From a virus: a DNA stretch of 42,943 bases. The notes beneath the pieces are model-generated. The model ran no database searches and was not told where the DNA came from. It worked only from the letters and a program-made list of their open reading frames with translations. The position numbers and the translations under genes were made by a program. The stretch's first letter is position 1. The number at the start of each line of letters is the position of its first letter. Below, piece after piece: positions 1-4,403 of the stretch. The stretch covers positions 1 through 42,943 of IMG/VR virus record IMGVR_UViG_3300032311_000372; one strand, 5' to 3'.

Positions 1-73
1 CGCAGAATAGTCCTCTCTTGCGGTGTTCTTTATTACAACTAGGGCACCTTTTTAATTTATATTGGCCTGACAT
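1..73 (-). CDS. Small Cys-rich zinc-binding protein, 3' end cut by window edge
   Basis: An ATG at 73 opens a frame that runs off the left edge of the window after 24 codons. It encodes basic residues and a CPSC followed by a further Cys (CPSCNKEHRKRGLFC), the usual layout of a small zinc ribbon. The start lies 115 bases beyond the preceding gene's stop and follows the region holding two DnaA boxes. Too little is visible to assign a role; small zinc-ribbon proteins are common in T4-like phages. Confidence 0.5.
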   Translation of the reverse strand, partial: MSGQYKLKRCPSCNKEHRKRGLFC

Positions 74-119
74 AAGCTAACGGTTTTCTCACTATTGGCT
101 GAGCTCGGTTACTACCTAC

Positions 120-139
120 TTATACACAGGTTATCCACA
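120..139. promoter_or_regulatory. Two tandem perfect DnaA boxes
   Basis: TTATACACA (120-128) and TTATCCACA (131-139) both fit the bacterial DnaA-box consensus TTATnCACA exactly. They form a tandem 11-base repeat, each ending in GG. They sit in the only non-coding gap at the left end (74-188), between a small gene at 189-416 and the zinc-binding gene starting at 73. They could bind host DnaA as part of a replication origin, or as a transcription control or titration site. No AT-rich unwinding element or further box was recognised beside them. Confidence 0.6.
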
Positions 140-188
140 GGTAAATCACATGGTTTCGGTAATTAGGTCATTACCAACCTTATTTCCA

Positions 189-416
189 TTATACTATAAT
201 CCTTGCACGGACATAGTAATTATCACTATCAATGTCCTCTGAATAGGTAAATGTGGTACGGTTACTCTCAAGCAAACATTTGGCCAAATCAATGGCTAAC
301 CTGTCTTTGATATGCTCTTTGTATTTCTCATCACTCATTATCTTTTCAAATAGCACAGGGTCTATCATCATCTCAACGTGGAAGGTTTGAGGTGGAATAT
401 TGGTTGGATTACTCAT
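189..416 (-). CDS. Hypothetical protein, 75 aa
   Basis: This small acidic/mixed protein has no family I recognise. I chose the ATG at 416 (protein MSNPTNIPPQ...). It overlaps the stop codon of the upstream 30-codon membrane peptide, which is the coupling pattern used throughout the window; an in-frame ATG at 428 is also possible. The middle holds charged helices (FEKIMSDEKYKEHIKDRL) and the end is beta-like (DNYYVRARIIV). It is the last complete gene before the DnaA-box region. Confidence 0.6.
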   Translation of the reverse strand: MSNPTNIPPQTFHVEMMIDPVLFEKIMSDEKYKEHIKDRLAIDLAKCLLESNRTTFTYSEDIDSDNYYVRARIIV

Positions 417-501
417 CTTTTGGTGCATCACTCACGTCCCATGCCACTGCGGCAATGCCAACAACTAGTATTACAATAAAAATTACTATATCAATGGTCA
501 T
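409..501 (-). CDS. Membrane micropeptide, 30 aa
   Basis: ATG at 501, stop at 409-411. The peptide is one hydrophobic segment (IDIVIFIVILVVGIAAVAW) followed by a short acidic tail (DVSDAPKDE). It begins 2 bases after the preceding gene's stop, and its stop region overlaps the next gene's ATG, so it fits the operon exactly. A single-pass membrane peptide could be lysis- or exclusion-related, but the sequence does not say which. Confidence 0.55.
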   Translation of the reverse strand: MTIDIVIFIVILVVGIAAVAWDVSDAPKDE

Positions 502-3626: not shown

Positions 3627-4403
3627 ATGGACTGGCTGTATAAAAACAAATCATTCGAAACACCTGAAAAAAATCCATATGAGGGGTTTGTGTATATCAT
3701 TGAGAACCTTACTAGTAATAAATTGTATGTTGGTAAAAAACATTTTTGGTCTAGACGTAAAAACAAAAAAACTGGCCGTAGAGAAACTAAAGAATCGGAT
3801 TGGAAAGATTATTATGGTTCATCCGATGAATTAAAAAAAGATATTGATATATTTGGAAAAGAAAACTTTAAAAGAACTATCATACACTTATGTATATACA
3901 AAAAACAAATGACATTTTGGGAAGAAAAAGAGCAATGGGATAGAAATGTTTTATTGGATGATGGTTATTATAATACCAACATTGGTGGTAGATATTTCGT
4001 GAGAGAGAGAAAAATATATTTGTCTTCAGAAAAAGAAATAACAACCAAAAATGAAAAGTGGAGACAAATAAAGAGTGAACAAATGAGGGGTGATAATAAT
4101 ATTGCTAAAAAACCCGAAATTAGAGCCAAGATATCAGAAAAGAAACGTGGAGAAAAACACCACCAATATGGAAAACCATTATCGGAAGAGCACAACAAAA
4201 AATTGCACGAAGCTGCTTTAAAATCTAGAATTGAAGAATGGGAAATTATAACACCTAATGGAGAGGTTGTATGCATAAGCAACTTGAATCAATATTGCAG
4301 AGATAATAATTTAAGTTCTAGTGCTATGTCTATGGTAGCCTCAGGAGAAAGAATCCAACATAAAAAATATAAATGTCGGAAACTTTCTACTGTAAGTGAA
4401 TGA
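3627..4403 (+). CDS. GIY-YIG homing endonuclease with NUMOD-type tail
   Basis: 258 aa; the only recognised gene on the plus strand. The GIY-YIG core begins at FVYIIENLTSNKLYVGKK (residues about 22-39). The tail has an NUMOD3-like run (RGEKHHQYGKPLSEEHNKK) and a C-terminal NUMOD1-like helix-turn-helix segment (ISNLNQYCRDNNLSSSAMS). This nuclease-plus-DNA-binding-module order is typical of free-standing phage homing endonucleases such as the T4 Seg proteins. It sits between two minus-strand genes and ends two bases before the zinc-ribbon gene, so it probably inserted by homing. A plus-strand AAGGA site precedes ATG 3627. Confidence 0.9.
   Translation: MDWLYKNKSFETPEKNPYEGFVYIIENLTSNKLYVGKKHFWSRRKNKKTGRRETKESDWKDYYGSSDELKKDIDIFGKENFKRTIIHLCIYKKQMTFWEEKEQWDRNVLLDDGYYNTNIGGRYFVRERKIYLSSEKEITTKNEKWRQIKSEQMRGDNNIAKKPEIRAKISEKKRGEKHHQYGKPLSEEHNKKLHEAALKSRIEEWEIITPNGEVVCISNLNQYCRDNNLSSSAMSMVASGERIQHKKYKCRKLSTVSE

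Follow-up and report, generated by a model that had tools for sequence, protein, structure and literature searches.

A conserved tandem array of predicted DnaA boxes beside a variable gene slot in uncultured T4-like phages

Introduction

T4-like phages, which carry initiation proteins of their own, are the textbook case of replication that is independent of host DnaA. Here we describe a tandem array of DnaA boxes at positions 120 to 139 of IMG/VR virus record IMGVR_UViG_3300032311_000372, a T4-like phage; "the window" refers to this whole stretch of 42,943 bases. The array is real, is conserved in register among close relatives, and is unique in the genome; its retention in place suggests that host DnaA is used or blocked by the virus.

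Among the closest described arrangements is that of Escherichia coli, where DnaA in vivo prefers pairs of boxes 2 or 3 base pairs (bp) apart, and adding 1 bp to a 3-bp gap causes binding to be lost. Regions bound by DnaA in this organism are mostly gene regulatory, and the bound protein is said to stand as a roadblock in the way of RNA polymerase (PMC11317965). No account of a DnaA-box array in T4-like phages was found in the open-access literature searched.

Results

The window encodes a gp43-type DNA polymerase (phrog_262, 1042.7 bits) and a gp41-type, DnaB-like helicase (phrog_19, 431.5 bits), both of which agree with the initial annotation of this DNA as a T4-like phage. Together with a primase, NrdA/NrdB, and PhoH, also encoded in the window, they identify the phage as T4-like. 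The closest named polymerases are those of cyanophages, at about 50% identity. Near the start of the window lie two boxes, each scored against the E. coli consensus:

120..130, plus strand: DnaA box 1 followed by GG (TTATACACA GG; box at 120-128), matching TTATNCACA at 9/9 positions
131..141, plus strand: DnaA box 2 followed by GG (TTATCCACA GG; box at 131-139), matching TTATNCACA at 9/9 positions, with a 2-bp gap to box 1

The boxes stand on the same strand as direct repeats with GG between them, each box and its following GG forming an 11-mer. As the initial annotation had described, they are noncoding: no open reading frame (ORF) of 60 amino acids (aa) or more runs across them, and they are flanked by the start codon of a leftward gene (1-73, truncated at the contig end) and the stop of a leftward ORF (189-431). 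The accompanying statement that they match the host box exactly holds in the sense of a match to the E. coli consensus.

We defined a double box as two direct matches to TTATNCACA separated by 2 or 3 bp. The window has a single occurrence of the paired pattern TTATNCACANNTTATNCACA, which none of 100 dinucleotide-preserving shuffles reproduced, and the density of single boxes predicts about 0.0002 such pairs. Single boxes are not enriched, either in the window, with 8 matches to the looser motif TTWTNCACA versus about 10 expected, or in a relative of 157.7 kilobases (kb; G001), with 9 strict boxes versus about 10 for permuted motifs. The tandem pair is therefore the signal. Nor are boxes scattered at random through the genome, an outcome that the initial annotation had named as a possible refutation: TTATNCACAG is found at this locus only, both in G001 and in five further clade contigs, of which some are short.

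Conservation in relatives, proposed as a further test, was also borne out. A PhoH search yielded 80 related loci, and in the close clade an array occupies the same place, just upstream of the leftward gene, which encodes about 98 aa starting MSGQYK. In relatives the array has three 11-bp units, each in a fixed register; that of the window has two and lacks the weak middle unit. Registers 3/14/25 are held by 8 boxed alleles (one of them 1 bp shorter), and every boxed allele retains at least two units with 8-9/9 matches despite drifting letters. The array is absent from a sister allele (L137/L070). The window, L046, and L072 are identical over the first 126 bases and then diverge within the array. 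The window thus seems to start at a branch point of the assembly, in a population of mixed strains, and its beginning at this place would be explained by a contig start about one k-mer before that branch point.

Outside the clade, the strict double box is missing from all 16 named T4-superfamily phages, which makes such a pair unusual for this group, and most sister lineages with long contigs have no array. Three other uncultured contigs, recognized as T4-like by PhoH or a T4-type polymerase, do carry arrays (G039, G077, and G081; G077 also has a gp23-type major capsid protein). Their arrays comprise 3 to 5 boxes in gaps of 270 to 550 bp, one of which lies between divergent gene blocks. Genes near the array are shared between G001 and G039, more weakly between G001 and both G077 and G081, and in large number between G077 and G081. 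Within 2 kb of the array, sigma-70-like promoter matches number 6 in G001, 9 in G077, and 12 in G081 versus about 1.3, 1.8, and 2.5 expected from their averages; the counts represent a lenient motif match rather than mapped promoters, and the expectations were calculated by arithmetic.

The same spacing recurs in virus collections, where some mis-sorted plasmid or chromosome pieces are included and counts are of contigs, not proven phages. Among the matches listed, at least 107 nonredundant loci have a 2-bp gap and at least 45 have the 4-bp gap used as a spacing control, and further boxes in contigs with tandem pairs are 11 bp apart in 27 cases, 12 bp in 23, 13 bp in 1, and 14 to 16 bp in 0. 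With the motif reversed, the whole collection yields 26 loci and not a single box array; the real pattern gave at least 120. The exact 22-mer occurs in 41 virus stretches (22 nonredundant), mostly outside ORFs, and has 0 matches in the bacterial genomes searched, which rules it out as a copy of a chromosomal site in those genomes. A fixed orientation of the boxes relative to genes in other phages was considered and rejected, with boxes on the coding strand in 25 contigs and on the opposite strand in 26. Separately, at least 120 virus contigs (L461-L535 and others) contain three exact TTATCCACA boxes at 11-bp steps, far beyond chance, and many of these triple-box contigs may represent origins of plasmid-like phages or prophages.

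Around the array, the window and its box-less kin contain the following elements:

1..73, minus strand: N-terminus (MSGQYKLKRCPSCNKEHRKRGLFC..) of the leftward gene of about 98 aa, truncated by the contig end, with a zinc-finger-like Cys pattern
107..116, minus strand: element GGTAGTAACC (read leftward), kept in the leader of the 98-aa gene family and present once in the 157.7-kb relative
115..123, minus strand: element ATAAGTAGG (read leftward), common to box-less relatives and overlapping the TTAT of box 1
142..188, no strand: cargo slot, 47 bp in the window and about 1.2 kb in several relatives
189..431, minus strand: leftward ORF (80 aa) beyond the slot, with no family above threshold
L312 2870-2965: hairpin in box-less kin, at the same place in L314-L317 and L319 and shorter in L307, with folding z-scores of -5 to -7 in three copies

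Box 1 and the start codon of the 98-aa gene are 46 bp apart. With the bases that follow it, ATAAGTAGG provides stops in all three frames, and it is one mismatch from the T4-late-type TATAAATA. A profile search with the 98-aa gene returned 49 loci; distant kin have the element ATAAGTAGGTAGTAACC upstream, either exactly or in variant form, without boxes, and the first four bases of box 1 derive from this element. In some box-less kin, the place taken by the array in the clade is filled by a hairpin of about 85 nucleotides, which has ATAAGTAGG on one side and GGTAGTAACC on the other and lies upstream of the 98-aa gene. Several copies have GGTAGTAACC on both sides of the hairpin, in a duplication-like arrangement. 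Rfam gave no credible match near the array in relatives or for the hairpin element.

In several relatives, the slot holds a cargo gene with an HNH-like start and a resolvase-type helix-turn-helix end, and a second cargo gene resembles PD-(D/E)XK nucleases, by eye only. The cargo and the next gene are co-directional, with the array between them. An inverted box-like copy (ATCCACAGGT..ACCTGTGGAT) lies directly beside the array in L046, L072, and L136, forming a hairpin of about 11 pairs where the cargo gene ends.

Many metagenomes are the source of the related contigs, which may be fragments and are believed to come mostly from fresh water. One carboxypeptidase of the 157.7-kb relative matches proteins mostly of Betaproteobacteria, with some of Gammaproteobacteria, at 33-37% identity, and these matches may offer a weak hint to the host. 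Methylophilaceae genomes have few double boxes, none of them adjoining dnaA in the stretches read. The transfer RNAs (tRNAs) of the same relative gave no help in naming a host; its 23 tRNA genes make up a nearly full set in a single cluster about 8 kb from the array (L128 6647-10274; 86.6-90.3 kb). At positions 3627-4403 of the window, on the plus strand, a homing-endonuclease-like gene (phrog_314, phrog_447) runs opposite to its neighbors and adjoins phoH, and the matching stretch is shorter in relatives.

Discussion

Judged by its sequence, the array probably binds DnaA. Host DnaA would bind the pair of boxes cooperatively, and the resulting complex would regulate or block transcription at the border between the cargo slot and the next gene. 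We tentatively favor this reading, in which the array is a transcription control point, acting as a regulator or a roadblock, between a variable cargo slot and its downstream neighbor. It is favored because most of the double boxes bound in E. coli are regulatory and bound DnaA has been described as a roadblock, because the array stands between co-directional genes, 46 bp ahead of a start codon, and because a long hairpin takes the same spot in some box-less kin. Such a hairpin would suit a block to read-through.

Several observations weigh against a control point. The middle unit of relatives is weak (6-8/9) and at a 1-2 bp gap, and the strict 2-bp pair belongs to the window allele only. A directional roadblock would favor a fixed box orientation, and orientation in other phages is not fixed. 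The best sigma-70-like promoters around the array of the 157.7-kb relative stand hundreds of bp from it, and conservation of the late-promoter-like ATAAGTAGG is not strict.

The array could instead be an accessory origin, where bound DnaA would help open early-region DNA and start the first rounds of replication, dispensable because of other origins and recombination. We consider this unlikely. A single array per genome would accord with it, as would the multibox arrays in the gaps of three other T4-like lineages, including the one between divergent blocks, and the early-type promoters amid which the arrays of G001, G077, and G081 lie. However, the change in GC (guanine-plus-cytosine) skew that the initial annotation had looked to at this site is absent from G001, where the sign is unchanged through 78 kb, which weakens its suggestion of a second origin; G081 and G039 also have no switch (the G077 array is only 2 kb from a contig end). 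The AT-richest 40-mer within 400 bp has 20% GC, and 1.2% of genome windows are as low, a frequency for which chance could account. The array is missing in one sister, and T4-type phages are generally known to bring their own means of initiation. Because there is no skew switch and no clearly special AT-rich stretch, and because the array can be lost, an origin function is less likely in this clade.

It is similarly improbable that the array is a neutral 11-bp repeat at a recombination-prone border, resembling DnaA boxes by chance. Slippage can create tandem units, the array does border a strain-variable slot with nuclease-like cargo, and the TTAT of box 1 is part of an element conserved in box-less kin. 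Against this, both units are full consensus matches, unrelated phages obey the 2-3 bp spacing rule, and two good boxes are kept while the units change. Least probable is a decoy by which many phage genome copies would titrate DnaA and stop host initiation: the strong box arrangement, a box number held while letters drift, and arrays in many unrelated phages would fit, but genomes of the clade have just two or three boxes, and the place is fixed where a decoy needs no fixed place.

A broader proposal is possible, if doubtful: in several uncultured T4-like lineages, host DnaA may be drawn to a single early-region site that serves as a switch or an accessory origin, so that a phage equipped with its own replisome would nonetheless read or seize the host initiator. 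If bound, a conserved double box would mean that at least some T4-like phages sense, use, or occupy the host initiator. Tandem boxes at DnaA spacing in many virus contigs also provide a simple signature for phages that possibly interact with DnaA.

Described systems resemble this locus in different ways. Phage T5 has DnaA boxes in a noncoding part of a lytic phage genome, in its terminal repeat and injection stop signal (PMC13250531); T5 is an unrelated phage, its boxes are in a terminal repeat, unlike the window array, and its 7 TTATNCACAG sites include no strict pair at 2-3 bp. A titration locus of the datA type likewise gathers DnaA boxes at a site apart from an origin, but the window array has fewer boxes, and titration by it would be hypothetical. 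The origin of Pseudomonas phage PseuGes_254 also places DnaA boxes in a phage intergenic region, as an Ori-Finder prediction that includes other origin motifs (PMC11512268), whereas in the clade of the window neither a skew switch nor a clearly special AT-rich stretch was found. The double boxes of E. coli at nrdA, mioC, purH, polA, and DARS2 (PMC11317965) differ from the array in that the latter is in a phage, has a third 11-bp register in relatives, and is predicted to be bound; like the array, they consist of two direct boxes 2 bp apart in noncoding DNA near the start of a gene.
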